A stretch of 64,000 nt of DNA from Gracilimonas sp. GTDB taxonomy: Bacteria; Bacteroidota; Rhodothermia; Balneolales; Balneolaceae. The stretch is taken from the NCBI RefSeq assembly GCF_040218225.1, contig NZ_JAVJQO010000008.1, positions 682,001 to 746,000 on the forward strand, in the 5' to 3' direction. Positions 5,719 through 64,000 of this stretch are shown piece by piece; position 1 is the first letter of the stretch, and each line of letters opens with the position of its first letter. Made by a program: the position numbers and the translations under genes. Under the pieces are notes generated by a model, which did not search any database, was not told the origin of the DNA, and worked only from the letters and a program-made list of their open reading frames with translations.

Positions 5719-7227
5719 TTAGATCACCTGCTTGCGCATCCGGGCAACAGGTTGATTCAGCTGTTCCCGATATTTGCTTACCGTTCTCCGGGCTACTTTA
5801 TACCCTTTGTCATTTAACATATTTGTCAACTCCTGATCGCTGTATGGCTTTTGCTTGTCCTCATTATCAATAAGTTTCTCCAGGATATTTTTTACTTCAC
5901 GGTTTGACACCTCTTCCCCACTCTCCGTCTCCAAGCCTTCATTAAAGAAATACTTGAGCTCATAAACCCCGAAATATGTTTGTACATACTTTCCATTAAC
6001 AACTCTGGAAACCGTCGAAATATCCATTCCAATTCGCTCTGCCACATCTTTTAAGATCATAGGCTTTAAACCTTCGCCAAACTTGAAGAAGTCTTCCTGC
6101 AAAGCCACAATCGTCTTCATAATGTTCATCAGCGTATTCTGTCGCTGACGAATAGACTCTATAAACCACTGCGCCGAATCAATCTTACTCTTCATGAAAG
6201 AGTGAGCTTCAGCATCGGTATTCTTTTTCTTTTTAGCTTTGATCTCCTCCCACATTTGCTTGTACTCAGGAGATATTCGCAGAGACGGTGCATTTCTTTG
6301 ATTCAGGTTAATCACGAATTCTCCGCGATCATTCTCGCCGTCTTCAATCCCCTTCCAATACACCTCAAAATCCGGCTCAATATAATTCTGGGTTTCTTCC
6401 ATGTCACTTGCAACTGAACCCGGGCGGGGATCCATTTGTCGAATCGCCTCAAAGGCTTCCTGTAATTCTTCACGGCCTATATTGAACTTCTGCAACAGTT
6501 TGGAGAAATGCTTTTTTTCAAAAGATTTCCAGGCTTTTTCTACAATTTTTATAGCCAGATTAAGTCCGGGTAAATCTTTTTCTGAGTCTTTTAATTGTAC
6601 TAATAAACAATCCTGTAAATCTCTGGATGCAATACCAATAGGATCAAGTTGCTGTATCTTTTTGCGAACGCTTTCCACCATATCTTCATCAACCAATACT
6701 CCCTGATTAAAAGCAATATTATCGACCACCGCTTCCAGCTCACGCCGGAAATATCCGTCTTCATCAAGCGAGCCTAAAATCTGATCGGCGATCAATTCTT
6801 CTTCCTCTGATAGATTGAGAAAAACAACCTGCTCTTCCAGCTGTTCTAAAAAGGAAGCGTGATATGGATTGGGCAGTTCCTTCCATTCTTCAATATCCGG
6901 ATTATAGGAAGTACTGTAGTTTTCTCCGTCATATTCAGTATTAGAATCATACTCGTCCCAATCTACCTCGTGTTCTTCCAGGCTTTCCAGGGCTTCTTCT
7001 TTTTCTTCCTTCGGAGCTTCTTCTGGCTCTGATAAGCTTACCGTTTCAGCTTCTCCCGGGTTTATCTCTTCGAGCACTGGATTGGCTTCCATCTCTTCCT
7101 TTATCCGTTGCTCCAGGGCAATGGTAGGTAGCTGCAACAGTTTGATATACTGCAACTGTTGTGGAGAAAGCTTTTGCTGTAAGCTTTGCTGCTGCTTTTG
7201 ACTTAAATTTTGTTGATTACGTAGCAT
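5719..7227 (-). CDS. rpoN: RNA polymerase sigma-54 factor RpoN
   Basis: The 502-residue product begins with the glutamine-rich activator-interacting region I (QKQQQSLQQKLSPQQLQYIKLLQLPT). An acidic linker follows (about residues 55-110), then the core-binding domain and the C-terminal RpoN box, seen as ARRTVSKYREQL near the end. It directs RNA polymerase to -24/-12 promoters and needs an AAA+ activator. A candidate activator (51345-52757) and a candidate sigma-54 promoter (48553-48567) occur in this window. The start overlaps the end of the upstream DUF3109 gene by 11 bases, so the two form one transcription unit. Confidence 0.97.
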   Translation of the reverse strand: MLRNQQNLSQKQQQSLQQKLSPQQLQYIKLLQLPTIALEQRIKEEMEANPVLEEINPGEAETVSLSEPEEAPKEEKEEALESLEEHEVDWDEYDSNTEYDGENYSTSYNPDIEEWKELPNPYHASFLEQLEEQVVFLNLSEEEELIADQILGSLDEDGYFRRELEAVVDNIAFNQGVLVDEDMVESVRKKIQQLDPIGIASRDLQDCLLVQLKDSEKDLPGLNLAIKIVEKAWKSFEKKHFSKLLQKFNIGREELQEAFEAIRQMDPRPGSVASDMEETQNYIEPDFEVYWKGIEDGENDRGEFVINLNQRNAPSLRISPEYKQMWEEIKAKKKKNTDAEAHSFMKSKIDSAQWFIESIRQRQNTLMNIMKTIVALQEDFFKFGEGLKPMILKDVAERIGMDISTVSRVVNGKYVQTYFGVYELKYFFNEGLETESGEEVSNREVKNILEKLIDNEDKQKPYSDQELTNMLNDKGYKVARRTVSKYREQLNQPVARMRKQVI

Positions 7228-38963: not shown

Positions 38964-39926
38964 TTATCCGAGGAATCCAAGTACAGACTGTGGTCCCATG
39001 TTAGCTTGCGCCAGCGATGATGTTGCAGTCTGCTGCAGAATCTGAAGCTTAACAGACTTACTTTGTTCTTTCGCGAAGTCGGTATCCATGATACGTGACT
39101 TGGCAGATTCGTTCGCACTGATTGACTCAGAAAGGGTTTCTTCACGTACAGAAAGAGAAGACTGAGTAATACCAATGTCGTTCACTCGGTTCGACATTTC
39201 GTCAATTGCACTGTCAACTGAGCTTAGGAAGCTACGGAAGTCAGATGAAGTTGCTGTAGCAGCAAAAGTCAATGCACCTTGTCCACTGGTTGTAGCCGCA
39301 GTAGCTGAGATAGCTCCACCTGCAGCAGCTCCACCACCGGCGGTTGTTGTAGCACCCAGAGAAGCATCTCCGGAAGCAGCAAACAGCTCACCCACGTTTA
39401 CAGCGTCGATAGAAGTGCTGATGGTGTCAGAAGCACGCTCACCTACCTGGAAGGTAAGATCAAGTGATCCGGACATATCGCCAGCAGCGTCACCGTTCAG
39501 GAGGTCGAAGTCCTGGAATACAGTCTGGTTAGCAATTTCGTTGATGTCGTCGCCAAGAGCTTTGATCTGGTCGCCGATGTAGCCACGCTCGGTGTCGCCT
39601 AACGTGTCGTTGGCAGCCTGGGTAGCCAGACCTTTCATCTCAACAAGACTATCCATGATGGTGTCGAAGCTGGACTCGGCAATGTCGAGTACAGACTTGG
39701 CATCACCTACGTTCTGAAGGGCTTGCTCCAGACCGGCTGTTCTACTTTTTAATTTGGTTGCAATCGAGTACCCGGCAGCATTGTCTTCTGCTTTGTTGAT
39801 TTTAAGACCGGTTGACATACGCATACGGCTGTCGGCCAGGTCACGGTTTACTCGGTTCAGTGATAACTGTGAGTCTAACGACTGAACGTTAGTATTTACT
39901 CTGTTTAAATCTCCAAAACTTGCCAT
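38964..39926 (-). CDS. fliC: Flagellin, copy 1
   Basis: A 320-residue filament subunit. The N-terminal D0/D1 part (LNRVNRDLADSRMRMSTGLKINKAEDNAAGY) and the C-terminal D1/D0 part (NESAKSRIMDTDFAKEQS, ending MGPQSVLGFLG) are conserved. The centre (about residues 170-235) is short and very rich in Ala, Thr, Ser and Gly, offering many possible O-glycosylation sites. A second gene (40531-41490) is almost identical. A sigma-28-like promoter lies at 39980-40007. The neighbouring glycosyltransferase operon suggests that the protein is glycosylated. Confidence 0.96.
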   Translation of the reverse strand: MASFGDLNRVNTNVQSLDSQLSLNRVNRDLADSRMRMSTGLKINKAEDNAAGYSIATKLKSRTAGLEQALQNVGDAKSVLDIAESSFDTIMDSLVEMKGLATQAANDTLGDTERGYIGDQIKALGDDINEIANQTVFQDFDLLNGDAAGDMSGSLDLTFQVGERASDTISTSIDAVNVGELFAASGDASLGATTTAGGGAAAGGAISATAATTSGQGALTFAATATSSDFRSFLSSVDSAIDEMSNRVNDIGITQSSLSVREETLSESISANESAKSRIMDTDFAKEQSKSVKLQILQQTATSSLAQANMGPQSVLGFLG

Positions 39927-39979
39927 GATATTTCACCTTTTTAGTTTAGTTATTGATTCCGTTGTTTTGGTTACTGCAG

Positions 39980-40007
39980 TTATCGTAGCCGAAATAGCGT
40001 TCTTAAA
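39980..40007 (-). promoter_or_regulatory. Sigma-28 (FliA-type) promoter of flagellin 1
   Basis: On the minus strand TTTAAGA (40007-40001) and CTACGATAA (39988-39980) resemble the FliA elements TAAAGTTT and GCCGATAA. The same arrangement with identical spacing precedes flagellin 2. The start codon is about 54 bases downstream of the -10 element. Confidence 0.7.
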
Positions 40008-40463
40008 TTTGAGTTTAAATTTTTTTGAAATTTTTTGAATTAATCTCAAAAAACAGCTTTAATCAATCATAAACGATGTTTTTTGATGGGAAATTATTTC
40101 AATTTTATTTCATCCAACACAAAATTTTGGTACTACAAGTCAGGAATTTGTGAATGATCAGGGAGTGTGAAAGCATTCACCGTTGGCTCTTGAGAATCGT
40201 GTGATTTCGGGTTGTAAGTTATACTAACCCCTCGCAAACCGACCCACCCCAGCCCTCCCTATTACGCTGCGCTTATATGGAGGGAGCATCTAATCAAAGG
40301 TTGTTCACATAGATCAAACTCTTTTCACTGGTCCAGCTCTTACCAACGAGTCCTCTTTCCCTGCAGCTTTGCTAAGGGATAAATACAGTATGGGCTCGCC
40401 GGAGGGAAAGAGACAGAGATAGGGTCCTGCCGGGATGCCCTGATTCAGGAAATTGACAAAAAC

Positions 40464-40497
40464 AAAAAACCCACCCCGGCAACTAAGCCAGAGTGGG
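40464..40497 (-). terminator. Terminator of flagellin gene 2
   Basis: On the minus strand CCCACTCTGGC (40497-40487) pairs along its length with GCCGGGGTGGG (40480-40470), allowing wobble pairs, and a T run follows. It lies just after the flagellin-2 stop. Confidence 0.78.
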
Positions 40498-40530
40498 CTG
40501 GAATCAATAGATTCGCTGGATTATTGATTA

Positions 40531-41490
40531 TTAACCAAGGAATCCAAGTACGGACTGTGGTCCCATGTTAGCTTGCGCCAGGGATGAAGTCGCAGTTTGT
40601 TGTAAGATCTGAAGTTTTACAGACTTACTTTGTTCTTTCGCGAAGTCAGTATCCATGATACGTGACTTGGCAGATTCGTTCGCGCTGATCGACTCAGAAA
40701 GAGTCTCTTCACGTACAGAAAGAGAAGACTGAGTAATACCAATGTCGCTCACTCGGTTCGACATTTCGTCAATTGCACTGTCAACAGAGCTCAGGAAGGT
40801 ACGGAAGTCAGTAGCTGTAGCAGATGCGTTGAAAGAAAGAGCACCTTGTCCACTGGTTGTAGCCGCAGTAGCTGAAATCGCAGCACCTGCAGCAACACCA
40901 CCACCGGCGGTTGTTGTAGCACCCAGAGAAGCATCTCCGGAAGCAGCAAACAGCTCACCCACGTTTACAGCGTCGATGGATGTGCTGATGGTATCAGAAG
41001 CACGCTCACCTACCTGGAAGGTAAGGTCAAGTGATCCGGACATGTCGTCAGAAGCACCGTTCAGGAGGTCGAAGTCCTGGAATACAGTCTGGTTAGCGAT
41101 TTCGTTGATGTCGTCGCCAAGAGCTTTGATCTGGTCGCCGATGTAGCCACGCTCGGTGTCGCCTAACGTATCGTTGGCAGCCTGGGTAGCCAGACCTTTC
41201 ATCTCAACAAGACTATCCATGATGGTATCGAAGCTGGACTCGGCAATGTCGAGTACAGACTTGGCATCACCTACGTTCTGAAGGGCTTGCTCCAGTCCGG
41301 CTGTTCTACTTTTCAATTTGGTTGCAATCGAGTACCCGGCAGCATTGTCTTCTGCTTTGTTGATTTTAAGACCGGTTGACATACGCATACGGCTGTCAGC
41401 CAGGTCACGGTTTACTCGGTTCAGTGATAACTGTGAGTCTAACGACTGAACGTTAGTATTTACTCTGTTTAAATCTCCAAAACTTGCCAT
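40531..41490 (-). CDS. fliC: Flagellin, copy 2
   Basis: A 319-residue flagellin identical to copy 1 over the first 140 or so residues and the whole C-terminal end. Differences are confined to the centre (for example ASDDMSGS for AAGDMSGS, GGGVAAGAAI for GGGAAAGGAI, SFNASATATDFRTF for TFAATATSSDFRSF) and VSDIG for VNDIG. The nucleotide sequences are likewise nearly identical in the termini, which suggests recent duplication or gene conversion. It has its own sigma-28 promoter and terminator. It ends the minus-strand flagellin pair, next to the glycosylation operon. Confidence 0.96.
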   Translation of the reverse strand: MASFGDLNRVNTNVQSLDSQLSLNRVNRDLADSRMRMSTGLKINKAEDNAAGYSIATKLKSRTAGLEQALQNVGDAKSVLDIAESSFDTIMDSLVEMKGLATQAANDTLGDTERGYIGDQIKALGDDINEIANQTVFQDFDLLNGASDDMSGSLDLTFQVGERASDTISTSIDAVNVGELFAASGDASLGATTTAGGGVAAGAAISATAATTSGQGALSFNASATATDFRTFLSSVDSAIDEMSNRVSDIGITQSSLSVREETLSESISANESAKSRIMDTDFAKEQSKSVKLQILQQTATSSLAQANMGPQSVLGFLG

Positions 41491-41546
41491 GATATTTCAC
41501 CTTTTGATTAATTAAAGTTTCTTATGAGTTGCTTTGGTTACTCAAG

Positions 41547-41574
41547 TTATCGTAGGTGAAATAGCCTTCTTAAA
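41547..41574 (-). promoter_or_regulatory. Sigma-28 (FliA-type) promoter of flagellin 2
   Basis: TTTAAGA (41574-41568) and CTACGATAA (41555-41547) on the minus strand, spaced as in the flagellin-1 promoter. The spacer GCTATTTC and the sequence just after the -10 (AACT..AGTAACCAAA) are also conserved between the two promoters. Confidence 0.7.
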
Positions 41575-41600
41575 TTATTCCTTAAATAAATTCCTTAAAC

Positions 41601-41623
41601 AAAAAAAGAGCCCTCACGGACCC
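41601..41623 (-). terminator. Terminator of the glycosylation operon
   Basis: On the minus strand GGGTCC (41623-41618) pairs with GGGCTC (41613-41608), using two wobble pairs, around a GTGA loop. Seven T follow. It lies downstream of the aminotransferase stop at 41705 and upstream of flagellin 2. Confidence 0.6.
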
Positions 41624-41704
41624 TTTATGACAGATAACAGAGAATAAGTTGGATTAATCGGAAATGTAATTTTCCTGAATACCCGTTCTTGTGCGCGTCA
41701 GAAT

Positions 41705-42916
41705 CTACATTGCCTGATCAGCAATAGCCCGGACAACGGGGACTTGCAAAGACGGTCGGATTTCCATTTTACGGAAGTCGTTTATAGCATCTATAATATA
41801 GTCCTGCTCTTCAACGGTTAATTCGTAATAAAAAGGAAGCCGTACAAGGTTATGGGAATAAAGATCTGTGTAAGGCAACGTTCGTCCGTCGTGTCTATCC
41901 TGAAAGAACTTTGATGTATGTAGAGACTGATAGTGAAAAACGCTCAAAACATTCCGCTCTTTTAAATAAGCGATCAGTTCATCCCGCTGCCGGGGATTTC
42001 TGCAAACCAGGTAATACATATGTCCGTTATTGGTGGCATAATCAGGAATACCCGGCTGACGAATTCCCAGTCTCTTGCACACACCCTCCAATCCTTTTTG
42101 ATATCGGTTCCAGATACACATTCTCTTTTGTTGAATACGAATCAGGTTCATCAGTTGTGCATATAGAAAAGCTGCATTTAATTCGGAAGGTAGAAATGAA
42201 GAACCGATATCCACCCAACCGTACTTATCTACTTCTCCGCGAAAGAATGCCGTTCGGTTGGTGCCCTTTTCCCAGATAATTTCAGCTCGTTCGGCAAAGC
42301 GGGCATCATTTATAGTCAGCATCCCTCCTTCGCCGGCCATAATATTTTTGGTTTCGTGGAATGAGAATGTTCCCAAATGTCCAATCGAGCCCAGCGGACT
42401 GCTAATTCCATCCGCATGCTCATAATAGCTGTTAATGGCCTGGGCAGCATCTTCAACCACAAACAAGTTATGTCGATCTGCGATATCCATCACCTTATCC
42501 ATATCACAAGCTACACCGGCATAGTGAACTACCACAATTGCCTTCGTTTTTTTATTGATAAGCTCTTCAATCTTATCCTCATCCATTCCCGGGTGATCTT
42601 TTCTCGAATCCACAAACCGAATAACAGCACCACGCAAAACAAAAGCATTAGCTGTGGAAACAAAAGTATAGGACGGCATGATGATCTCATCACCGGGTTC
42701 CACATCCAGCAATATAGCCGCCATTTCGAGAGCATCCGTGCAGGATGTTGTAAGCAAACACTTTTCAAAACCAAACTGTCGCTCAAAAAACCGATGAATC
42801 TTCTGAGTGTACTTTCCATTCCCGGAAATCTTCCCAAAATCTACCGCATCCTGAATGAACTCGAGCTCGTTGCCGGTTATAAATGGTTTGTTGAAAGGAA
42901 TTTTGTAATTACTCAT
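41705..42916 (-). CDS. DegT/DnrJ/EryC1/StrS sugar aminotransferase (WecE/RffA-like)
   Basis: With the ATG at 42916 (MSNYKIPFNKPFITGNELEF) the enzyme has 403 residues. The PLP lysine lies in GHLGTFSFHETKNIMAGEGG; DEIIMPSYTFVSTANAFVLRG and VVEDAAQAINSYY are also typical. The closest familiar type is dTDP-4-amino-4,6-dideoxygalactose transaminase (WecE/RffA), which makes TDP-Fuc4N. The neighbouring acyltransferase and GT56-type transferase fit the same pathway (TDP-Fuc4NAc made and transferred). It overlaps the acyltransferase gene by eight bases and is last in a four-gene operon. Confidence 0.85.
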   Translation of the reverse strand: MSNYKIPFNKPFITGNELEFIQDAVDFGKISGNGKYTQKIHRFFERQFGFEKCLLTTSCTDALEMAAILLDVEPGDEIIMPSYTFVSTANAFVLRGAVIRFVDSRKDHPGMDEDKIEELINKKTKAIVVVHYAGVACDMDKVMDIADRHNLFVVEDAAQAINSYYEHADGISSPLGSIGHLGTFSFHETKNIMAGEGGMLTINDARFAERAEIIWEKGTNRTAFFRGEVDKYGWVDIGSSFLPSELNAAFLYAQLMNLIRIQQKRMCIWNRYQKGLEGVCKRLGIRQPGIPDYATNNGHMYYLVCRNPRQRDELIAYLKERNVLSVFHYQSLHTSKFFQDRHDGRTLPYTDLYSHNLVRLPFYYELTVEEQDYIIDAINDFRKMEIRPSLQVPVVRAIADQAM

Positions 42917-43724
42917 AGGGCACAAATTTTCCTTTTTCGGGAAGCAAATACTTCATGAATTTCACTTCTTCCGTGGAGCGCTTTTTGGTATAAGTTCTGG
43001 AAGCCACATCGAAGTAGCTGACCTCGTCATCGAAATTGAATTCCGTAATATTGCTTACCACCTTTACCTTCTCTTCTGAAATTCCTGCCTCTTTCACGTA
43101 TATGTTCATTCTCTCCATCTTTTCATCGAGACTCACATTCTCAAACTGTGGGCCGATTTTTTCTGAAAGAGAACGAGCCGGAGAGCCCGCATAAATTTGG
43201 TTGTACTCCATGTTTTTAGTCACCACGGAGCCAACCATCGCCATCGATTTATCTTCTGCTGTAATGGGGGAAACAATACAGTGGCCCACAAACCATACGT
43301 CGTTGCCTACCGTCAATGAGTTTTCGCTCAAAAACCGGCAGCCTTCCAGGGTATCTCCATACTTGATGTGCGACCACAGCTGAGAGTGTGCCCCTATCCC
43401 GCAGTTATTTCCAATGGTCGTCCCACCAATACTGTCGATGATAGAGTATTGCCCGACCCAGGCGTTATGCCCTATAACACAGGGTTTGTAGCCATGCACA
43501 TTGGTGTTGTGATGAATTTTGGAGTAATCCCCCAGCTCAAAGTGGTCACAGATAATCTGCACATTCTTCCCAATGTAACAGTTATCTCCAATTTTGATGG
43601 TTGTGGCTGGTCCGTTCAATCCCATAATCACTGCCGACTCTTCTATAACTGTGCCTTCTCCAACTTCGATTTCAACGGCATCGATATTCGGGTAGGTTGC
43701 AGTTGCTTGCACTATTGAATCCAT
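42909..43724 (-). CDS. Left-handed beta-helix (hexapeptide repeat) acyltransferase
   Basis: A 271-residue protein with many hexapeptide repeats forming a left-handed beta-helix (for example VGEGTVIEESAVIM, IKIGDNCYIGKNVQII, CVIGHNAWVGQYSII, TTIGNNCGIGAHSQLW, LTVGNDVWFVGHCIV). The repeats are followed by a C-terminal tail of about 90 residues ending LLPEKGKFVPYE. It probably acetylates a sugar amine made by the adjacent aminotransferase. WecD of the E. coli pathway is a GNAT protein, so this would be an analogous enzyme. Acyl donor and acceptor are not known. Confidence 0.75.
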   Translation of the reverse strand: MDSIVQATATYPNIDAVEIEVGEGTVIEESAVIMGLNGPATTIKIGDNCYIGKNVQIICDHFELGDYSKIHHNTNVHGYKPCVIGHNAWVGQYSIIDSIGGTTIGNNCGIGAHSQLWSHIKYGDTLEGCRFLSENSLTVGNDVWFVGHCIVSPITAEDKSMAMVGSVVTKNMEYNQIYAGSPARSLSEKIGPQFENVSLDEKMERMNIYVKEAGISEEKVKVVSNITEFNFDDEVSYFDVASRTYTKKRSTEEVKFMKYLLPEKGKFVPYE

Positions 43725-43725
43725 C

Positions 43726-45417
43726 CTAATTCACCAGCGCATGTTCAGTTATCCTTTCTCTGATTGTGCTGCAGGAGGTTACCAGATCTTTTGCCCGGGT
43801 CTTTAAGCCAAATTCATTAATGATAATTTGTTGATTTCGGGTTTTCTGAGGTTGAGACTTTCTCAGAAAAGATCGTATAGATGTAGCTTTTTTAAATTCT
43901 TCAAAACCCGATACACCCAAGCCATATTTTCTCAACATTTCCCAGGTTGGGTTCATCTGCTCTTTTTCACCCACCGTAATCTTCTTTTTCAGAACAGTGG
44001 TATTCCCGCTGTATAACGACAAAAGCATATTCCCAATGGCCTGTTGGCGATTATGAGCAGTGATCAACATATCTGAAGACCCTACAAAAGTCCGGTACTC
44101 ATCCGGTTCTATAAAATTCTTGATGAGCTTCACAAAATCAGTCATTCCGGCTGCATTCAACCATTTCAGGATCGCATTCTCATATTCCGGAATTAAGTTA
44201 TAGGACACCGGAAGCAGGATATCATAGTCTCTCACATCTTTCTTCGTCCTTAGTGCCTCCAAAATCTCGATATGATTATTTGAATAGTCACCTGAGTTCC
44301 CCACAATAATTCTGGGACGATCATTACTTTCGGTTTCCTCCATAATATCCCCGTAAAGCCCCGGATAAGGATAACCAAATCGGAAAGTCGGGCAGTTTCC
44401 GTAATGTTTCTTAAACACTTCAACATCGCCTTCAACCAATGAGTGGATACTGTCGATATGTTCAACAATATCTACTATCGGCTCATTTACTTTGATGGGA
44501 TTGTAGAGATCACCACCCCAGATAATCCATCCAATATGTTTTTTTGAACCGATTTCTTTGATCAGTTTTTTCTGCCAGCTAAAAAACAGTCCATGAACAA
44601 ATAATGCGTCCACATCAGTATCCAGGCATCGGTTAATAATGGCTGGAAAATCGTACTCATGATTAAACCAGGCAGCGTGTTCATTACTGCTTAAATCAGG
44701 TTTATAGTCTTCAATAGCCCAGTGTGATTCTACAAATAAAAGATGCTGCTGTTCATATTCCTCGTTCACAAAAGCCAGCATATCCGACTGTGACTTCGCA
44801 TACAAATGGTTGAAGCAAAGGTGAATGTATTTTCCCTCTCCGGGCCTGCACTTTCTTCCAAATGATGTATAGAGCTTATCTTTCTCTGCCCTTGCTTCTT
44901 CTAAGTCAGGCTTCATATGGAGGGTGATATCGTGCAGCTCCATTGCTTTCTTGAGATCCCCTTTTTCGGAATAAATTCTGGCTAATTTATAGGCAATAAC
45001 ATGATTCTTTGGGTCCAGTTTATTAGCGATGGTAAAACACTGAATGGCTTTTTCTGAATCAGACTGCCCCCGGTAAATTTCACCCATAAACATCCAGGCC
45101 TCCAGCAAATGCTGATCTAATTGAATGGCCGCTTTTCCATAACGCTCTGCCTGTTCAAAATCTGAAAGAGCGTTAAAACATTTGGCGATTTGTAAGTAGG
45201 CATGGGGATTTTCAGCATGCCTGGTAAGAGAAGTTTCAAAGTAAACTACTGCCTTCTCATAGCTGGCTTTAACCATGTGGGCAATTCCCAGAAAGTGATC
45301 GATCAGCCAATGCTCATTGCCCTGTTCTGCCAAGAAGTTAAGCACCTTTATCGCTTCATCAGCATCGGGTTGTGCCCGATCCAATAAAAGCCGGACCTTT
45401 TCTAATTCTGATTTCAC
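43726..45417 (-). CDS. TPR-GT56 fusion: TDP-N-acetylfucosamine-type glycosyltransferase (WecF-like)
   Basis: A 563-residue protein. Residues 1 to about 190 are tetratricopeptide repeats (ALSDFEQAERYGKAAIQLDQ, QCFTIANKLDPKN). The remainder matches the GT56 family of WecF: HIGWIIWGGDLYNP (about residue 299; WecF FFWHIWGADLYE) and IIVGNSGDYSNNHIEILEAL (about 372; WecF ILVGNSGDRSNEHIAALRA). WecF transfers Fuc4NAc to a lipid-linked sugar and has no TPR. The TPR part is closely similar to that of the upstream GT41 protein, suggesting that both recognise the same polypeptide, perhaps flagellin. It lies one base before the acyltransferase gene and four after the GT41 gene. Confidence 0.8.
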   Translation of the reverse strand: MKSELEKVRLLLDRAQPDADEAIKVLNFLAEQGNEHWLIDHFLGIAHMVKASYEKAVVYFETSLTRHAENPHAYLQIAKCFNALSDFEQAERYGKAAIQLDQHLLEAWMFMGEIYRGQSDSEKAIQCFTIANKLDPKNHVIAYKLARIYSEKGDLKKAMELHDITLHMKPDLEEARAEKDKLYTSFGRKCRPGEGKYIHLCFNHLYAKSQSDMLAFVNEEYEQQHLLFVESHWAIEDYKPDLSSNEHAAWFNHEYDFPAIINRCLDTDVDALFVHGLFFSWQKKLIKEIGSKKHIGWIIWGGDLYNPIKVNEPIVDIVEHIDSIHSLVEGDVEVFKKHYGNCPTFRFGYPYPGLYGDIMEETESNDRPRIIVGNSGDYSNNHIEILEALRTKKDVRDYDILLPVSYNLIPEYENAILKWLNAAGMTDFVKLIKNFIEPDEYRTFVGSSDMLITAHNRQQAIGNMLLSLYSGNTTVLKKKITVGEKEQMNPTWEMLRKYGLGVSGFEEFKKATSIRSFLRKSQPQKTRNQQIIINEFGLKTRAKDLVTSCSTIRERITEHALVN

Positions 45418-45421
45418 AATA

Positions 45422-48346
45422 TTATTTGTTTAGAATCCTGTTGTTGATGTACTTGATGGTCCCAACTTCACAAGGAGCTGATACTCCTGATGCATACACG
45501 CTGAATCCGGATAGAATGGCGTCGATCTCCCGACGATCTGCTTCCGAATGATATTCCAGCATAATAAAGCCGGTGTTGATGAGCAGATCTTTCATGCCTT
45601 TAAGAATAGAAACTTCAGCCCCTTCGGTGTCAATTTTGAGCACGTCAATCTTGTTGATTCCTTTCTCAGCAAGGGCTTCTCCGCTTTTCTGCATCTTAAC
45701 AGCAACCTCATGTCCGCCTTTCATGTGAAAAGTAGTTGAAGACTGCCCAGTATTCCTCGGGTGCTGAAACAAATTGATTTCACCGTTCTTATCGCTCAGG
45801 GCCACCTGGTTAATGGAAATATTTTCAAGGTCTTTCGTATTGTGTGCCAAAAGCGGAAATACCTGTGGATTGGGCTCAAAACTGTAGATCTGGCAATCGG
45901 GATTCCACTGCCGGGCATATAATGAAAAAGACCCAACATTCCCCCCTATATCAACAACCACACTGTTCTTATTCAGCTTAAAAACTGAAGGAAGTCCATA
46001 CTCATGATCTTCAAATATATTCCTTAACCTGAAAAGCTCAGATTCCGGAATGGCCAAAGTCAATGGTTCCTCATACTTCAAACCCTGAGTATTCACTATG
46101 GCCTCTACCACCTCTGAGGGAGTATCTTTGAACTTCACAAGAGACTTATTTACATAAATCCCCTTCTTCAACGCTTTGTTTTGTTTTCCGTTTTGAAGTG
46201 ATTCAGGATGGGTTTCAGATTCTTTTTTTTTCTGTGACACCCAAATATGATCCTGCCATTCTCCTTCGGATAAATGCTTTTCATATCCTTGCACTCTCTG
46301 AAGCCACATTTTACGGAAAGCATCCGCCAGGTTGCGGGCAAAGCGTTGAGCATCGCATACCGGAGAGCTTAATAAGCGCCCCCGAAGTTCAGCTCTTAAC
46401 TTTGATAGTTGATCAACATCACCGGCAAGAGAAACTGCTTTTTGTATATAGTCTTCCCAGTTGTCAGTCACCCATTCCGGAAAACCCGCATTCGTCAAAT
46501 GAGAAGTGGAGTGCCGCCCGGCAAAAGTAGGTCCTGAATTGGTAATTACCGGCACGCCCATCCATAAAGCCTCGATGGTTGTTAATCCACCGGAATACGG
46601 CCACGGATCCAGCGCGATATCAATTTTGTTGTAGCATTCAAGCAGTTCATTATGGAGTGAATATCCCTCAAAAATCACCCTGTCTTCCTCAATATCGCGC
46701 TCCGCCAGGTGTTGGGTAATTCGCTCCCTAACCAATTCCGTATCGTACTGCTTGCTCTTGAGAAAAAGACGGCTAGCAGGAACTTGCTTCAGAATTTCTG
46801 CCCACTTAGACAAAAGCTCAGTGTTAATCTTGGTAGGGTTATTGAAACACCCAAAAGTGATGTATCCATTTTGGGTAACAGGAGCTTCTGCTACCTCAAT
46901 ATCATAGTTTGGAAGGGTATAACAGACATAATCGTCCGGCATACGAACCAATTTTTCGGTGTAGAATGGCTCTTCGCCTTCCGGAGATTCTTTAGCATCC
47001 GTCAGCAGGTAATCCATAGACTGTAACCCTGAAGTATTGAACAAACCTCCCACCCATTTTATGGTAATTGGAGCTGGTTCCAGAGCGACAGTCTTAAGAC
47101 GATTTCCGGAGGAATGCCCGGAAAGTTCGACCAGAATATCGATTTCGTCATCTTTAATAATCTGCGCAACCACCTCATCGCTGTATCCCACTACGGATGT
47201 CCACTTCGCACTGGCTTCCCGAATGCGTTTAGTGAGTGAATCGTGATAGGTATCGGTAGTGTATATATAGGTTGCAATTTCATCTTCGAGAAGTTCCTCA
47301 AGGGCGGATGTTATCATCCAGCCTACCGGGTGTTTTTTAAACCCACCCGAAATAAAACCAACACGCAGTTTCTTGTCTTTATCTTTATTGGCGGGAACCG
47401 GACGCACCGGCCGTTCTTCCGGTGCATAATATTGATCCCAAAGTGAATGAGCTTCAAAAATCTCTTCTTTGGTTCGCTTGGGATTGTAATGGATCCCCAT
47501 CAAATAGTTGGAAAGGGACTGCTGCGTTTCCGGGGCATCCTTTAATGCTCTCCGATAATTCTTCTCCGCTTCATCATATTGACCTGTTTCCACAAGGCAG
47601 AGCGCGTAATTTACCCGTACATTTCCGTCATTGGGGTAACGATCCAGCAAACGCTCATTCAATTCAATGGCCTCGCTATATCTACCCATGGCTCGATATA
47701 ACAGAGAGAGTACGCTCAACGCCAGCAGGTTTTCGCTGTCAATCTCCAGCACTTTCTGGATGGCTTCTTCCGCCCGCTCATGTTCACCAATCGACTGGTA
47801 AATCTGCGCCTTCTTGATGCCGGCATCAATCAGCTTTGGCTCCATTTGCAGGGTAATGTCGTACAATTCCAGGGCTTTCTTATAGTCACCCTGGTCGGCA
47901 TAAATTTGCCCGATATTGTAAGCAATCAGGTAATTCTTTGGGTCCAGTTTATTGGCAATGGTGTAGCATTGAATGGCTTTATTTAATAATGCCTGATCCC
48001 AGTAGAGCTTCCCCATAAACATCCAGGCATCTAACAACTCCTGGTTCAACTGTACAGCCGCTTTCCCAAATCGCTCTGCATTCTCAAAATCCTCCAGTTG
48101 ATAATAACAGCGAGCTACCAACAAATAGGTCTGGGAGTTTTGATCATGCTCACCGATGGATTTCTCGAAGTACCCGATTGCTTTCTCAAAATTGGACTTC
48201 TGCATTTGAGCAATCCCCAGGAAGTAATAGACCAGCCAGTGTTTAGACTCTCGCCTAAGCAAAGGATGAAGCAATTTAATCGCTTCATCCGGATCCGGAT
48301 ATCTCTGATCTAATAACTTTTGGGCACGCGCTAATTCTACTTTCAT
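45422..48346 (-). CDS. TPR-GT41 (OGT/SPY-like) glycosyltransferase fused to an FkbM methyltransferase
   Basis: A 974-residue three-part protein. Residues 1 to about 290 are TPRs. Residues of about 325-700 form a GT41 catalytic region of O-GlcNAc-transferase type: KLRVGFISGGFKKHPVG, whose His matches the conserved GT41 histidine; FGCFNNPTKINTELLSKWAEIL; DIALDPWPYSGGLTTIEALW (about 580). Residues of about 795-965 are an FkbM-type SAM methyltransferase (VVDIGGNVGSFSLYA, IDVLKIDTEGAEVSILKGM). It could add a sugar to Ser/Thr of flagellin and methylate it. It is the first gene of the operon, divergent from fliS. Confidence 0.85.
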   Translation of the reverse strand: MKVELARAQKLLDQRYPDPDEAIKLLHPLLRRESKHWLVYYFLGIAQMQKSNFEKAIGYFEKSIGEHDQNSQTYLLVARCYYQLEDFENAERFGKAAVQLNQELLDAWMFMGKLYWDQALLNKAIQCYTIANKLDPKNYLIAYNIGQIYADQGDYKKALELYDITLQMEPKLIDAGIKKAQIYQSIGEHERAEEAIQKVLEIDSENLLALSVLSLLYRAMGRYSEAIELNERLLDRYPNDGNVRVNYALCLVETGQYDEAEKNYRRALKDAPETQQSLSNYLMGIHYNPKRTKEEIFEAHSLWDQYYAPEERPVRPVPANKDKDKKLRVGFISGGFKKHPVGWMITSALEELLEDEIATYIYTTDTYHDSLTKRIREASAKWTSVVGYSDEVVAQIIKDDEIDILVELSGHSSGNRLKTVALEPAPITIKWVGGLFNTSGLQSMDYLLTDAKESPEGEEPFYTEKLVRMPDDYVCYTLPNYDIEVAEAPVTQNGYITFGCFNNPTKINTELLSKWAEILKQVPASRLFLKSKQYDTELVRERITQHLAERDIEEDRVIFEGYSLHNELLECYNKIDIALDPWPYSGGLTTIEALWMGVPVITNSGPTFAGRHSTSHLTNAGFPEWVTDNWEDYIQKAVSLAGDVDQLSKLRAELRGRLLSSPVCDAQRFARNLADAFRKMWLQRVQGYEKHLSEGEWQDHIWVSQKKKESETHPESLQNGKQNKALKKGIYVNKSLVKFKDTPSEVVEAIVNTQGLKYEEPLTLAIPESELFRLRNIFEDHEYGLPSVFKLNKNSVVVDIGGNVGSFSLYARQWNPDCQIYSFEPNPQVFPLLAHNTKDLENISINQVALSDKNGEINLFQHPRNTGQSSTTFHMKGGHEVAVKMQKSGEALAEKGINKIDVLKIDTEGAEVSILKGMKDLLINTGFIMLEYHSEADRREIDAILSGFSVYASGVSAPCEVGTIKYINNRILNK

Positions 48347-48552
48347 GATCGAAAATGAGTTTTCTGGTTTTCAACACCGTCTCATTTCCAAAAATGATGC
48401 CATCCCCCAAACACCCAATTCCATCCTGTTTTTTGCCTGTTTCTATAAGTGAAGGAGGGCTAAATTTTCCGTTTCAGAATATTTTTCCGCATTTCTGGTG
48501 TAATCCTTAAAGAATAACACTTCAAAAAGCCCCACTTAAAGCCTGGGCACTT

Positions 48553-48567
48553 TGGCATAGTAGTTGC
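48553..48567 (+). promoter_or_regulatory. Sigma-54 (-24/-12) promoter of the fliS operon
   Basis: TGGCATAGTAGTTGC keeps the GG and GC doublets at the spacing of the consensus TGGCAC-N5-TTGC. It lies 128 bases upstream of the fliS ATG. rpoN and an NtrC-type activator gene (51345-52757) are both in this window. Confidence 0.75.
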
Positions 48568-48633
48568 CAAAGTAAATCTGTCCGCAACAGGCGTAAGCTT
48601 GTGATGGATTGAGAAACATTAAAAACTCCTAAT

Positions 48634-48661
48634 TTAAGTTTTTTGGCTATTTAGCCGATAA
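48634..48661 (+). promoter_or_regulatory. Sigma-28 promoter of the fliS operon
   Basis: TTAAGTTT (about 48634-48641) and a perfect GCCGATAA (48654-48661) match the FliA consensus. The spacer contains GGCTATTT, as in both flagellin promoters. It lies 33 bases before the fliS ATG, downstream of the sigma-54 promoter. Confidence 0.78.
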
Positions 48662-48694
48662 GAACCGGGAGTTACTTTCATCAATTTCAAAAAT

Positions 48695-49021
48695 ATGCGA
48701 GATCCACAATTAGTTTATCAAAAACAATCCGTCATGAATGCTTCTCCGCTGAAGCTGGTGGTGAAGATGTATGACCTGGTTATTCAGGCTACTTATCGGG
48801 AAGATCAGACAAAGGTAAAAGCCATTTTATCTGAATTGATTCAGGGATTGAACTTTGATTATGAGCCAGCCGGACAGCTTTTTGAGCTTTACAGATACTG
48901 TCAGGACCTGGCCCGGAAGCAGCGGTTTGAAGAAATCCGTGAAATTCTGGAGCCCTTAAGAGAAACCTGGGAAGAAGTTGCCAATCAAAAGCAGCCCTCT
49001 CCTTCTGTAATTCAACAATAA
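48695..49021 (+). CDS. fliS: Flagellar export chaperone FliS
   Basis: A 108-residue helical protein with the FliS pattern (YQKQSVMNASPLKLVVKMYDLVIQA). It binds the C-terminal end of flagellin in the cytoplasm and prevents early polymerisation. It is first in the fliS-fliD-fliT-like-flgM-like run, 28 bases before fliD, and is driven by tandem sigma-54 and sigma-28 promoters. Confidence 0.88.
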   Translation: MRDPQLVYQKQSVMNASPLKLVVKMYDLVIQATYREDQTKVKAILSELIQGLNFDYEPAGQLFELYRYCQDLARKQRFEEIREILEPLRETWEEVANQKQPSPSVIQQ

Positions 49022-49049: not shown

Positions 49050-50447
49050 ATGGCATCCATTTCAAGCCTTATGAGCCAGACAAGTTCTTACGAATCGTTC
49101 GTAACGCAGCTTGTCAACCTTGAAAGCCAGAAAATGCTTCGGATGGAAGTACAGGTTCGTGATGAAAAAGAGTCAAGGTCTGCTGTAGGTACTGTAAGTA
49201 AATCTATTTCTGATTTTGAGAATATTATTAAGGAGCTTGAAACTCCCGGCAACCGGTCATTTGAACCATTTAAAACTACTTCCAGTGATGATTCGGTTGT
49301 GCAGGTAAACTCCGCTTCCGGTTTGGATAATGAATCCGCTTTCAATATCACCGTAGAAAGGCTCGCTAAAAACGACACCGCCCTCTCGGAAACAATGACC
49401 GGTGCCGGCTATGAACTCGCCGCACAGGGAGATGGCTCCGTAACACTGACTATTGGTGACAAGACAGAGACAATAAATATTGTAACCACTAAAGATGATG
49501 GCAGTGGCGGCACGATAGATAGAACCAACCAGGAAATTCTGGAAGCTTTTGAAACTGAAATTGAAAGTTTATTTGGCGATGAAGCCAGTGCCAGCGTTTT
49601 TAACCTGGATGGCGAAAATATACAGTTCTCCCTCAAAAGCCTTGAAACCGGCTACGACAACCGCATTCAATTTAGCGGTGCCTCTGGTGTTTTAGCAGGC
49701 GTTACCGGGGGCATGACTCACCTCACTCCCCAAGCCGAGTTAGATGCTCAGTTTATTATTGATGGAGTGACTTTTAACCGTGCCGAAAACACGGTTGATG
49801 ATGCTATTGAAGGGCTCTCCTTCACCATGAAGAAAGCCACCGGTGTAGCCGAGCAAATGACGGTTGAGCGTGATACCGAAGCCGCAAAATCTAACCTGCA
49901 GGACTTCATCAATGCCTATAATGAAATGAACGAAACCATCAGGGAACGTACATTCATTAATCCTGAAACCGGCAACAAAGGGCCTCTTCAGGGAATGAGA
50001 TCTGTAAGGAATCTCACAATAAACTTACGCCAAACCGCGATGTTGTCTCTGGGAGGTGTAGCGGAAGGTGAAGTTGCCAGTTTTGCTGACATGGGTATTT
50101 CCTTCGAAAATAATGGCAAAATGGTCATCGAAGATTCCGATAAACTGGATCAATTGTTAAACCAAAACCCGGAGCAGATTGCCAACTTCTTTACCAGTGA
50201 AAGCTCTCCCGTTGCTATGATGAAGGCTCGTGCTGAATCTTATACTGAAGCGGATGGTATCCTATCTGCTATCGAAAGCGGACTGGATCAAAAAATTGAC
50301 AGACTGGATCGTCGTATTGCAAACGAACGAAAATACCTGGAAGAATACGAGGCTGAACAGCGCCGGATTTTTAATGAGCTTGACCTGATACTTGAAGAAG
50401 GACAAGCTCAGTTCGACGCTGTTTATAATTTCATGTCTGGTTATTAA
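49050..50447 (+). CDS. fliD: Flagellar filament capping protein FliD
   Basis: A 465-residue hook-associated protein 2. The N-terminal FliD domain (SSYESFVTQLVNLESQKMLRMEVQ) and the C-terminal FliD domain (SNLQDFINAYNEMNETIRERT; final LDQKIDRLDRRIANERKYLE, coiled-coil) are clear, with a beta-rich middle. It forms the pentameric or hexameric cap that folds incoming flagellin at the filament tip. The next gene follows eight bases later. Confidence 0.93.
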   Translation: MASISSLMSQTSSYESFVTQLVNLESQKMLRMEVQVRDEKESRSAVGTVSKSISDFENIIKELETPGNRSFEPFKTTSSDDSVVQVNSASGLDNESAFNITVERLAKNDTALSETMTGAGYELAAQGDGSVTLTIGDKTETINIVTTKDDGSGGTIDRTNQEILEAFETEIESLFGDEASASVFNLDGENIQFSLKSLETGYDNRIQFSGASGVLAGVTGGMTHLTPQAELDAQFIIDGVTFNRAENTVDDAIEGLSFTMKKATGVAEQMTVERDTEAAKSNLQDFINAYNEMNETIRERTFINPETGNKGPLQGMRSVRNLTINLRQTAMLSLGGVAEGEVASFADMGISFENNGKMVIEDSDKLDQLLNQNPEQIANFFTSESSPVAMMKARAESYTEADGILSAIESGLDQKIDRLDRRIANERKYLEEYEAEQRRIFNELDLILEEGQAQFDAVYNFMSGY

Positions 50448-50455
50448 TTATTTAT

Positions 50456-50830
50456 ATGGATACCCAAGTGATGACGCCTTTGCATAACATATTAGGACAA
50501 TTGAATGACAGCAGTGAAGCTATCCTACGTGAAATTGATCAAAATGAGCCTTCATTTGAATCTATAAAACACCAGTTAGGACAGCGTGAAGATCTGGTTA
50601 AAAAACTGGGCATCCTTTCAGAAGCGAACCCGCGGGAGTCACTTTCCGATGAAGAACGGATTTCGCTGAGGTTTCTATTCGAAACTTTTGTAGAACTAAA
50701 CGACAATATCCAAAACAACCTGCAAAACAAATTAAACAGTCATAAGGAAAAATTAGGCACTGCAGTAAAACAGCGGAAAGTGGAGAAAAGCTACAGTGTT
50801 TTAAAGAATCCTGACATTTCGTACTTTTAA
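50456..50830 (+). CDS. FliT-like flagellar chaperone candidate
   Basis: A 124-residue, predominantly helical acidic/basic protein (LNDSSEAILREIDQNEPSFESIKHQLGQREDLVKKLG...). The size, helical make-up and position directly after fliD fit FliT, the FliD export chaperone, but sequence similarity is not strong. It could also be an unrelated flagellar-operon protein. Confidence 0.45.
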   Translation: MDTQVMTPLHNILGQLNDSSEAILREIDQNEPSFESIKHQLGQREDLVKKLGILSEANPRESLSDEERISLRFLFETFVELNDNIQNNLQNKLNSHKEKLGTAVKQRKVEKSYSVLKNPDISYF

Positions 50831-50856
50831 TCTTGATGAATAAGAGGGATAATACT

Positions 50857-51213
50857 ATGGAAATTAACAAGCTAACAAATCACGTAAACGGTCAAATTAA
50901 AAGCACGGATGCTTCCGAAAGCAGCAAGGGTGCTTCTAAAGTTACACGTACCGAAAAACCTGCTGAGTTTACCGATAAGGTATCTCTGGAGAATTATAGC
51001 GCAAAGAAAAGCGAACAGCTATTTGCAAAAATAGAACTGGAAAAACTAAACCAATCTTCTTTTGGTAAGCTGAAAGATTACAAAGCCAAGTTACAGGCAT
51101 ATGAAGCGGCTAAGAATGAGTCGCCAGAAGCAGCTAAAAACACTGAAATAGGGAAAATGTTGAACGACCCGGAAGTATGGTCAAAAATAGCACAGAATAT
51201 AGTTGACAAATAG
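50857..51213 (+). CDS. Small flagellar-operon protein, FlgM-like candidate
   Basis: The ATG at 50857 is chosen because GAGGG lies eight bases before it; the frame extends upstream to 50833. The 118-residue product begins MEINKLTNHVNGQIKS and contains FTDKVSLENYSAKKSEQL, similar to the start of FlgM (anti-sigma-28) and related flagellar proteins. The C-terminal helix pair ends GKMLNDPEVWSKIAQNIVDK. It is unstructured at the N-terminus and Lys-rich. A strong terminator follows. The FlgM idea is only a hypothesis. Confidence 0.45.
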   Translation: MEINKLTNHVNGQIKSTDASESSKGASKVTRTEKPAEFTDKVSLENYSAKKSEQLFAKIELEKLNQSSFGKLKDYKAKLQAYEAAKNESPEAAKNTEIGKMLNDPEVWSKIAQNIVDK

Positions 51214-51252: not shown

Positions 51253-51279
51253 AGAGAGCATTAATTGCTCTCTTTTTTT
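51253..51279 (+). terminator. Terminator of the fliS-fliD operon
   Basis: AGAGAGCA (51253-51260) pairs with TGCTCTCT (51266-51273) around a five-base loop, followed by seven T. It ends the fliS-fliD-fliT-like-flgM-like transcript before the activator gene. Confidence 0.88.
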
Positions 51280-51344: not shown

Positions 51345-52757
51345 ATGAAACATTCCATTCTTGTTGTTGATGATGATGAACTTCTACTTGGGTTCATGGA
51401 GGAGATATTAACAAAAGAAGGATTTGAGATTCATGCTTTTGAATCTCCTGTGAAGGCTACTCAATATCTCGAGAAAAATACCGTCGATCTGGTCATAACC
51501 GACGTTAAAATGAATGAGATGACCGGAGATGAAGTCCTTGCCACTGTAAAAAAGAAGTACCCGGACACTGGCGTTATTATGATCACTGGTTTTGGAAATA
51601 TCAACCACGCTGTGCGTGCGCTGCATAAAGGTGCTTTTGATTATATCACCAAGCCATTTAAAGCTAAAGAAATTATCTATCGGGTAAACCGCTATTTCGA
51701 TGCCGATCCCGAAGAGCGTGATAAGAAGCCCAAATCGGTAGCCCACTCTCCCCGTGAAGATAAAAAAGGCGATCTGGTTAGCCCGTTGAATAATTCTGAG
51801 GAAACTGAAAACAATTTTATTGGCAACGATCCTCAGATAAAAAAGCTTCTGAGGGTTATTCCACAAATTGCCCGCAACGCAGCCCCAGTTCTAATTCAGG
51901 GTGAAAGCGGAACCGGAAAAGAAGTTTTTGCTCATCAGATTCATGTTAACAGCAACAGAGCCCAGGGACCCTATATCAAGATAAATTGTGCCAACCTTCC
52001 TTCCGAGCTGGTTGAAAGTACACTTTTTGGGCATCTGGAAGGTTCCTTTACCGGTGCTACCTCAGACCGTAAAGGCGCTTTTGACGCTGCCGAAGGCGGT
52101 ACTTTGCTCTTGGATGAAATCACAGAAATTGAACTTAATGTTCAGGCCAAGCTTCTTCGCGTTCTGCAAGAAAATGAATTTTACCGGGTGGGAAGTCAGG
52201 AACCCGTTAAAGCCGATGTTCGCATTCTGGCAACATCAAACCGAAATATTGCCGAAGCCATTGCTGACAAACAATTCAGGGAAGATTTATACTATCGCCT
52301 GAATGTATTTCCTGTAGAAATCCCCCCTCTTCGTAATCGAAAAGGTGACATCCCGGTTTTAGCCAATTACTTTGTTGAGCATTATTCCAAAAAATACGAG
52401 TTGGAAAAAAAAGAACTTTCTGAAGAGCTCCTTGAACATTTAGTTCAGCAAGATTGGCGTGGGAATGTGAGAGAGCTAAATAATAAAATCCATCGTGGTA
52501 TTATTTTAGCTCAGGATAGTGACAATATCACGATGGAACATATCAACAATGAAATGTTTTCCAGTGTGGATGATAACCTGAATAAGGAAATTCTTTCAAC
52601 TGACCTTCCCCTTATGTCGATTGAAGACATGGAACTGCAACTCATTCAGAAAGCTCTTGAACACACGCAGGGCAACCAGAAAAAAGCGGCTAAGTTATTG
52701 GGTATTTCTGACCGTACCATCCGAAATAAGCTCAAGCAGTTGGATGATGAGGACTAG
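51345..52757 (+). CDS. Sigma-54-dependent response regulator (NtrC/FlrC-type)
   Basis: A 470-residue protein. The receiver domain (about 1-120) has the phosphoacceptor D53 in LVITDVKM. The AAA+ domain has Walker A GESGTGKE, the sigma-54 contact loop GSFTGAT (from G233; the usual form is GAFTGA) and Walker B GGTLLLDEITEI. The C-terminal Fis-type helix-turn-helix reads GNQKKAAKLLGISDRTIRNKL. It should activate sigma-54 promoters such as that at 48553. No sensor kinase is adjacent. Its stop overlaps the stop of the convergent copper-oxidase gene at CTAG. Confidence 0.93.
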   Translation: MKHSILVVDDDELLLGFMEEILTKEGFEIHAFESPVKATQYLEKNTVDLVITDVKMNEMTGDEVLATVKKKYPDTGVIMITGFGNINHAVRALHKGAFDYITKPFKAKEIIYRVNRYFDADPEERDKKPKSVAHSPREDKKGDLVSPLNNSEETENNFIGNDPQIKKLLRVIPQIARNAAPVLIQGESGTGKEVFAHQIHVNSNRAQGPYIKINCANLPSELVESTLFGHLEGSFTGATSDRKGAFDAAEGGTLLLDEITEIELNVQAKLLRVLQENEFYRVGSQEPVKADVRILATSNRNIAEAIADKQFREDLYYRLNVFPVEIPPLRNRKGDIPVLANYFVEHYSKKYELEKKELSEELLEHLVQQDWRGNVRELNNKIHRGIILAQDSDNITMEHINNEMFSSVDDNLNKEILSTDLPLMSIEDMELQLIQKALEHTQGNQKKAAKLLGISDRTIRNKLKQLDDED

Positions 52758-63526: not shown

Positions 63527-64000
63527 TTAAAACCTGCCCAGTCGGGTGGTTACCTGAGAAAGCATCTCATCTGTGGTTTTAAGTGCTCGCTGCTGGCTTT
63601 CAAAAGCCTGCATGTTTCTCATCATATCCACCATCTCCGTCAGGGGCTGTACATTTCCTTTTTCATAATATCCCTGCATCACCATGCCGGTACCATCTTC
63701 AGAAAGCAAGTCTTCATCCATTACGGTGAAGTATGCACTTCCTTTCCGGTTCAGCATGGCTGGGTCTACCACATTCATAATTCGAAGCTTGTCCTGCGCT
63801 TTGTTATTTAAGCGAATGGTTCCATCTTTGGATATTTCAAGCATAGTATTACCCCCATTTTCGCCGTTCGACTGCATATATTCTGCAAGCTGAACCGGGC
63901 CAGAATCTCCCATTACTTTAGCACCGGAACTGTTCACCAGATATCCATCAGGGTCAAGGTGAAAGCGGCCGTCACGGGTTAAAAACTGTTCTCCGTTATC
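63527..64000 (-). CDS. flgF: Flagellar proximal rod protein FlgF (5' end beyond the window)
   Basis: Only the C-terminal 157 residues are present; the frame is open to the last base of the window and reads FLTRDGRFHLDPDGYLVNS there. The end (KGNVQPLTEMVDMMRNMQAFESQQRALKTTDEMLSQVTTRLGRF) matches FlgF/FlgG-type rod proteins, and the position upstream of flgG favours FlgF. A start inside the window (GTG at 63937) would be artificial. Confidence 0.88.
   Translation of the reverse strand, partial: DNGEQFLTRDGRFHLDPDGYLVNSSGAKVMGDSGPVQLAEYMQSNGENGGNTMLEISKDGTIRLNNKAQDKLRIMNVVDPAMLNRKGSAYFTVMDEDLLSEDGTGMVMQGYYEKGNVQPLTEMVDMMRNMQAFESQQRALKTTDEMLSQVTTRLGRF

Follow-up and report, generated by a model that had tools for sequence, protein, structure and literature searches.

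Of central interest in this flagellar locus is whether the operon for the filament cap is read at one stage of flagellar assembly or at two. The DNA analyzed, referred to below as the window, is a stretch of 64,000 nucleotides from the 3.54-Mb genome of a Gracilimonas-type member of the Balneolaceae. A preliminary description of the window had placed a near-perfect −24/−12 element and a perfect sigma-28 element 87 bases apart upstream of fliS, and had proposed that the operon could be read at both the middle and the late stage. The features on which this question turns are as follows.

45422 to 48346, minus strand: divergent gene with profile matches to TPR, GT41 glycosyltransferase, and FkbM methyltransferase domains
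48553 to 48568, plus strand: sigma-54 (−24/−12) element TGGCATAGTAGTTGCC, start site expected near 48579
48634 to 48661, plus strand: sigma-28 promoter TTAAG-N15-GCCGATAA, start site expected near 48668
48695 to 49021, plus strand: fliS, flagellin export chaperone (Pfam PF02561, E 6.5e-13)
49050 to 50447, plus strand: fliD, filament cap (PF07195, E 1.1e-41; PF02465, E 1.1e-12)
50456 to 50830, plus strand: fliT-like gene, named from its position and a match below cut-off (PF05400, E 6.6e-5)
50857 to 51213, plus strand: orf118, last gene of the operon (126 amino acids if the start is the TTG at 50833)
51253 to 51279, plus strand: terminator-like inverted repeat and T run after orf118, read from the sequence
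51345 to 52757, plus strand: NtrC-type response regulator (receiver, sigma-54 AAA+, and Fis-type HTH domains), candidate activator

Sigma-54 promoters have the consensus TGGCAY-N5-TTGCW, with GG and GC in −24/−12 spacing, and sigma-28 (FliA) promoters combine a −35 of TAA(A/G) with a −10 of GCCGATAA, separated by about 15 bases. Scored over 12 positions (TGGCA, Y, R, TTGC, and W), TGGCATAGTAGTTGCC matched at 11, with GG and GC correctly spaced and a last base of C rather than A or T. The sigma-28 promoter matched at all 12 of its scored positions (TTAAR plus CCGATAA, with 14 to 16 bases from −35 to −10): its −10 lies at 48654 to 48661, and the −35 TTAAG at 48634 to 48638 ends 15 bases before it. 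Both elements are on the strand of the fliS-fliD-fliT-like-orf118 operon, upstream of fliS, and were rejected as promoters for the divergent glycosyltransferase gene, which shares the intergenic region, because their orientation is opposite. Both elements of the preliminary description were therefore recovered in tandem and at the quality it gave them, but the distance from the end of the −12 element to the start of GCCGATAA counts as 85 bases, not 87. That description did not include the sigma-28 −35, nor the upstream site, the inverted repeat, and the conservation reported below. The same intergenic region holds a weaker sigma-54-like match (TGGCATCATTTTTGGA, 48402 to 48387, minus strand) 40 bases before the divergent gene, which scores 10 of 12 but has GG where GC is expected.

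Short motifs recur by chance in a window of this size, and the two elements differ in how they stand up to this. Matches to TGGCACNNNNNTTGCW with up to two mismatches number 25 in the window versus 29.2 expected, and because the pattern shows no excess, the sigma-54 match by itself proves nothing at window scale. Within the 300 bases upstream of fliS, an equally good sigma-54 match arose in 0.6% of 500 dinucleotide shuffles and an equally good sigma-28 match in none of 500. The window holds 8 copies of the octamer GCCGATAA versus 1.7 expected, and a −35 was seen at the searched distance for the copy at 48654 alone; the seven others (9159, 12671, 13756, 18132, 33492, 33959, and 36578) lack one and were rejected as promoters. 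When the 300 bases upstream of 131 genes (at least 100 amino acids each, from 164 kb of the same chromosome) were scored, 4 genes reached at least 11 for sigma-54 and 11 genes did so for sigma-28, and fliS was the only one of the 131 to do so for both.

Conservation was assessed in a set of fliS upstream regions from Balneolota. A search of 57 genomes turned up fliD in 24, including this one, in 27 loci that were reduced to 24 by dropping the second pieces of two genomes (L040 of G041 and L037 of G034) and a contig that ends before fliS (L033). Another 21 fliD loci came from named genomes, one of them Erythrobacter, and 11 were kept after removal of nine duplicates of existing loci and the Erythrobacter locus (L095). 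The resulting 35 distinct regions are not independent, as they include two copies from G022, the close pairs G001/G007 and G018/G033, and several Fodinibius types. At least 11 of 12 positions matched for both elements in 20 of the 35, compared with none of 3,500 first-order Markov shuffles; taken singly, the sigma-54 element reached this score at the orthologous position in 24 (0.6% of shuffles) and the sigma-28 element in 29 (0.9% of shuffles). With the threshold lowered to 10 of 12 for both, 26 of the 35 regions qualified. In 18 of the 20 strict pairs the sigma-54 element leads, and the sigma-28 −10 follows 75 to 223 bases later. The order is reversed in G003 (L021), a member of the same genus, and in G004 (L023), where the sigma-54 element comes 13 bases after the start of the sigma-28 −10; the two would overlap, and the two polymerases would compete.

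The sequence around the elements is not kept in this way. Whole-region alignment compared this genome with 14 of the other 34 regions, and in the 11 that make up the more distant set, identity over 300 bases was 0.60 to 0.68, compared with 0.60 to 0.62 for shuffled sequence, so that the elements stay while their background aligns near the shuffled level. The strict test excludes 15 of the 35 loci. A sigma-28 element without a good sigma-54 element is seen in five (L032; L034 and L038, from one genome; L035; and L094), one has sigma-54 only (L036), one has neither (L039), two have as their sole match a sigma-28-like sequence about 256 bases away (L030 and L031), and six are one position short on one or both elements (L019, L020, L022, L027, L028, and L029). 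In the two closest relatives, G001 and G007, the sigma-28 −10 reads GCCGAAAA. Judged on sequence, the conservation of the pair is decisive support for both elements being real.

Whether such a pair can be read as middle plus late depends on what the two sigma factors serve elsewhere in the genome, and the following features bear on this.

5719 to 7227, minus strand: rpoN, the sole PF04552 match in the genome (E 2.2e-55)
38964 to 39926, minus strand: flagellin 2, with a sigma-28-like site at 40006 to 39980
40531 to 41490, minus strand: flagellin 1, with a sigma-28-like site at 41573 to 41547 (TTAAG...TACGATAA)
63527 to 64000, minus strand: flgF, first gene of its run, cut by the window end and reaching 64330

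The genome has one fliA match over the cut-off, about 6.5 kb past the window end and after flhB, flhA, flhF-like, and flhG-like genes. Matches to PF00158 number 10 in the genome, of which 4 are strong, and one of these is the response regulator beside the fliS operon (51345 to 52757). Both rpoN and an enhancer-binding protein are present for a sigma-54 promoter, as are fliA and a matching motif at flagellin and motor genes for a sigma-28 promoter. Upstream of the flgB basal-body operon, a sigma-54 element scored at least 10 of 12 in 26 of 26 genomes and at least 11 of 12 in 24 of the 26 (all 26 loci, best match within 1,500 bases upstream of fliE). In this genome it is TGGCACAGCAATTGCA, at position 90178 in window counting, and it lies inside the longest flgB open reading frame, whose rod domain begins at residue 60. 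The flgF run (flgF-flgG-flgA-flgH-flgI-flgJ-flgN-flgK-flgL) has a sigma-54-like site, TGGCACAGATTTTGTA with TTGT, at 64371, just outside the window. Further sigma-28 sites precede motA, two MCP genes, a TonB-like gene, a cheY-like/cheX pair, a PAS gene, and an 86-amino-acid gene after fliA. Since sigma-54 elements stand at flgB and flgF and sigma-28 elements at the flagellins, motA, and chemotaxis genes, the promoter sequences indicate a hierarchy in which sigma-54 marks hook-basal-body genes, sigma-28 marks filament, motor, and chemotaxis genes, and the cap operon carries both. Alongside the flagellins, the interval 38964 to 48346 holds an aminotransferase, a hexapeptide transferase, and two TPR-glycosyltransferase genes, and looks like a flagellin glycosylation cluster.

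A candidate activator site for the sigma-54 promoter was found by way of the flgB operon.

48458 to 48470, no strand assigned: putative activator site, reading GGCTAAATTTTCC, or GGAAAATTTAGCC as its reverse complement; it lies 95 bases upstream of the sigma-54 element
48477 to 48489, no strand assigned: a further, less strong box of the TTTTTCCG type (GAATATTTTTCCG), scored 10.7 by the matrix at an offset of one base

The flgB sigma-54 element is preceded, at a distance of 77 to 108 bases, by a 13-base near-palindrome, GGAAAAATTTGCC, in 21 of 25 genomes (25 of the 26 flgB loci were used; L118, with fewer than 60 bases, was left out). A matrix built from flgB sites only gave the 48458 to 48470 site, matched as GGAAAATTTAGCC on the reverse strand, a score of 14.3, which ranks it sixth among the distinct sites of 164 kb. 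Its distance of 95 bases from the fliS element compares with 98 bases for the flgB copy in the same genome (G000:C8:772264, or 90264 in window counting), and the flgF region has a weaker site of this type, GGAAAACATTTCC, at 64566. The fliS site stands at 95 bases in this genome, G001, G005, and G007 and at 106 bases in G026 (score 13.3); it is strong but 166 to 173 bases off in G003 and G004 and weak in G018 and G033, and none convincing was found in the Fodinibius-type loci and most others. Near fliS it is therefore largely a feature of the Gracilimonas-like group. Shuffles of the region itself reached the score in 5 of 100 cases, position ignored. CGGAAA-type words occur upstream of fliS sigma-54 sites in 14 of 27 regions versus 3.5 expected, and GGAAAAA upstream of flgB sigma-54 sites in 16 of 25 versus 2.6. 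The most enriched flgB-region word is CTGATAA or its complement, in 19 of 25 regions versus 0.7 expected (L099 to L124). As with the inverted repeat treated below, the consensus of the upstream site was derived from the same sequences, which makes these control fractions optimistic. The likely binder of the putative site is the response regulator at 51345 to 52757, because it is one of the 4 strong PF00158 matches among 10 and because tblastn places a match to it inside 40 of 48 fliD loci, a count that includes duplicates and tabulates presence within the locus rather than strand or position. A histidine kinase gene that adjoins the flgB operon and is divergent from it (L011:6360-7394) is a possible partner of this regulator.

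Between the two promoters lies one more candidate control element.

48618 to 48633, no strand assigned: inverted repeat ATTAAAAACTCCTAAT, candidate operator, 10 of 12 positions, abutting the sigma-28 −35

When the fliS regions were aligned on the sigma-28 −35, a repeat family with the consensus ATTAGA-N4-TCTAAT emerged. Scores of at least 9 of 12 were found in 22 of 35 loci versus 8.2% of shuffles, at least 10 in 14 versus 1.2%, and at least 11 in 6 versus 0.04%, with perfect repeats in L026, L085, L088, and L091, all of Fodinibius type. Among the 22 repeats scoring at least 9, 20 (all except L029 and L039) end 0 to 1, 5, 11, or 15 to 16 bases from the −35; the offsets step by about half a helical turn. 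Exact copies exist in 18 of the 57 genomes and are absent from this one, and in G032 the sole exact copy in the genome is the one at fliS. The repeat was not found at the nine other sigma-28 sites of this genome, where the best score was 8 of 12. It was rejected as a common sigma-54 activator site, since within 200 bases of the flgB elements it reached 10 of 12 in only 2 of 26 loci and 9 or less in the rest. As an RNA hairpin, its inner pairs break in this genome (ATTAAA/CCTAAT, by eye). From its distribution, the repeat looks like an operator particular to the fliS operon.

All three elements are also found in the fliS region of Fodinibius salsisoli (L088), with sigma-54 at 11 of 12, sigma-28 at 12 of 12, and an inverted repeat that is perfect. 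A paper on this species describes the flagellar pathway as broken and the cells as non-motile (PMC9909488). Retention of all three control elements bears on whether such flagella are relics and suggests that selection still acts or acted recently.

The reading that we favor, with a probability of about 0.82, is that fliS-fliD-fliT-like-orf118 form an operon with tandem sigma-54 and sigma-28 promoters used in stages and with a probable operator between them. The middle and late expression put forward in the preliminary description gains support from the conserved pair (20 of 35) and from the flagellar promoter map, because sigma-54 precedes basal-body genes and sigma-28 precedes filament genes, and mid-stage and late promoter elements both stand upstream of the operon. 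The start sites, the timing, and the dependence on rpoN and fliA we infer from these elements. While the hook-basal body is under construction, the NtrC-type regulator (51345 to 52757) would be bound around 48458 to 48489 and would drive RNA polymerase with sigma-54, so that the cap, the chaperones, and orf118 are supplied before flagellin appears. Upon completion of the hook-basal body, sigma-28 would be freed, and its promoter would keep the operon on alongside flagellin. The inverted repeat is probably an operator that tunes or separates the two promoters. Release of sigma-28 by export is an assumption in this scheme, because FlgM was unrecognized in the genome.

Simpler readings have to explain away one promoter. 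A plain late operon, in which the sigma-28 promoter alone works and the −24/−12 match is a remnant or chance, would fit the lack of excess of the sigma-54 pattern in the window, the final C of the element, and the five loci in four genomes that have sigma-28 without a good sigma-54 element. It is unlikely given that 24 of 35 loci keep the sigma-54 element, at varying distance from the gene and in sequences otherwise near saturation, and that fliS shares its upstream site with flgB. The opposite reduction, in which only the sigma-54 promoter works and GCCGATAA arose by chance or belongs to the leader of the sigma-54 transcript, is very improbable: the −35 is at standard spacing, 29 of 35 loci carry the sigma-28 element, and the same layout recurs here at flagellins, motA, and chemotaxis genes. 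These points outweigh the seven window copies of GCCGATAA that have no −35 at the distance searched and the GCCGAAAA of the nearest relatives.

The two promoters and the repeat could also form one switch, in which a regulator bound to the repeat would hold back or assist the sigma-28 polymerase until a late signal, so that the promoters take turns instead of adding to each other. The preferred spacings of the repeat from the −35 (20 of 22) and its absence from the nine other sigma-28 sites argue for this joint proposal, and we regard it as a tentative possibility, at well below even odds. Against it, the repeat consensus was taken from the sequences it was then sought in, 13 of 35 loci have no repeat at 9 of 12, among them L021 and L023 with both promoters, and no protein is known to bind the repeat. 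More doubtful still is a novel three-part switch, consisting of a sigma-54 promoter with its GGAAAAATTTGCC-type palindromic site, a sigma-28 promoter, and between them an operator whose regulator chooses the polymerase, with orf118 as a diverged FlgM-type anti-sigma factor closing the loop; if this were true, orf118 would be made from both promoters.

The last proposal involves orf118, which was found in 40 of 48 fliD loci (the fliT-like gene in 29 of 48). FlgM has a disordered N-terminal half and a helical C-terminal half. The structure predicted for orf118 is disordered in its N-terminal half and forms helices from residue 48 onward (mean pLDDT, 69; pTM, 0.38). The sequence carries DKVSL midway and IAxKI at its end, and the protein resembles FlgM in layout alone. 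The window protein did not match the PF04316 or NCBIfam FlgM models, none of 21 members of the orf118 family matched FlgM in Pfam, and neither PDB sequences nor PDB folds gave a FlgM match; in these searches orf118 is not recognizable as FlgM. The window protein, alone among the 21, has a match to PF06511 (E 2e-4) under the cut-off. Across the genome, PF04316 gave nothing over the cut-off and no FlgM was recognized, and the 86-amino-acid gene after fliA (L010:7552-7812) was tried as FlgM and gave no match.

Flagellar sigma-factor work in this phylum was not found among the open-licence papers listed, and the elements described here provide an outline of flagellar control for the phylum: sigma-54 for the basal body, sigma-28 for the filament and chemotaxis, and both for the cap operon.

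Among better-studied flagella, the closest parallel is fliDST of Escherichia coli, which FlhDC is described as binding and activating and which FliA reads as well (PMC4183435), a cap operon likewise served by a mid-stage activator and sigma-28. Its mid-stage promoters use sigma-70 with FlhDC, in place of the sigma-54 element found here, and the gene order differs, being fliS-fliD-fliT-like plus orf118 in this genome. In the same report, dual-regulated genes changed little when fliA was deleted under the conditions tested (PMC4183435), and because of this the late promoter could matter little here too. In Vibrio cholerae, as reviewed in PMC6504787, class III (FlrC and sigma-54) includes fliD and fliS, so that sigma-54 and an NtrC-type response regulator govern both the cap and the chaperone, in the same sigma-54 class as rod, ring, and hook genes, as proposed here. 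The review names fliD and fliS in class III only, and it describes FlrC sites as typically downstream of the start, unlike the upstream site proposed here. Campylobacter jejuni has sigma-54 for hook and rod genes and the cap under sigma-28, with fliD tabled as class III (PMC7105676); that table gives fliD one class only, unlike the pair here. For fliS-fliTX-flgZ of Xanthomonas oryzae, fliS promoter activity is reported to fall in rpoN2, fleQ, and fliA mutants, and the authors suggest that the RpoN2/FleQ effect runs via control of fliA (PMC5550985). The likeness is that fliS promoter activity needs RpoN2, FleQ, and FliA; tandem promoters are not mapped in that account. Set beside these systems, the arrangement here is a sigma-54/sigma-28 version of the known dual control of cap operons, with a mechanism that is ordinary in kind.
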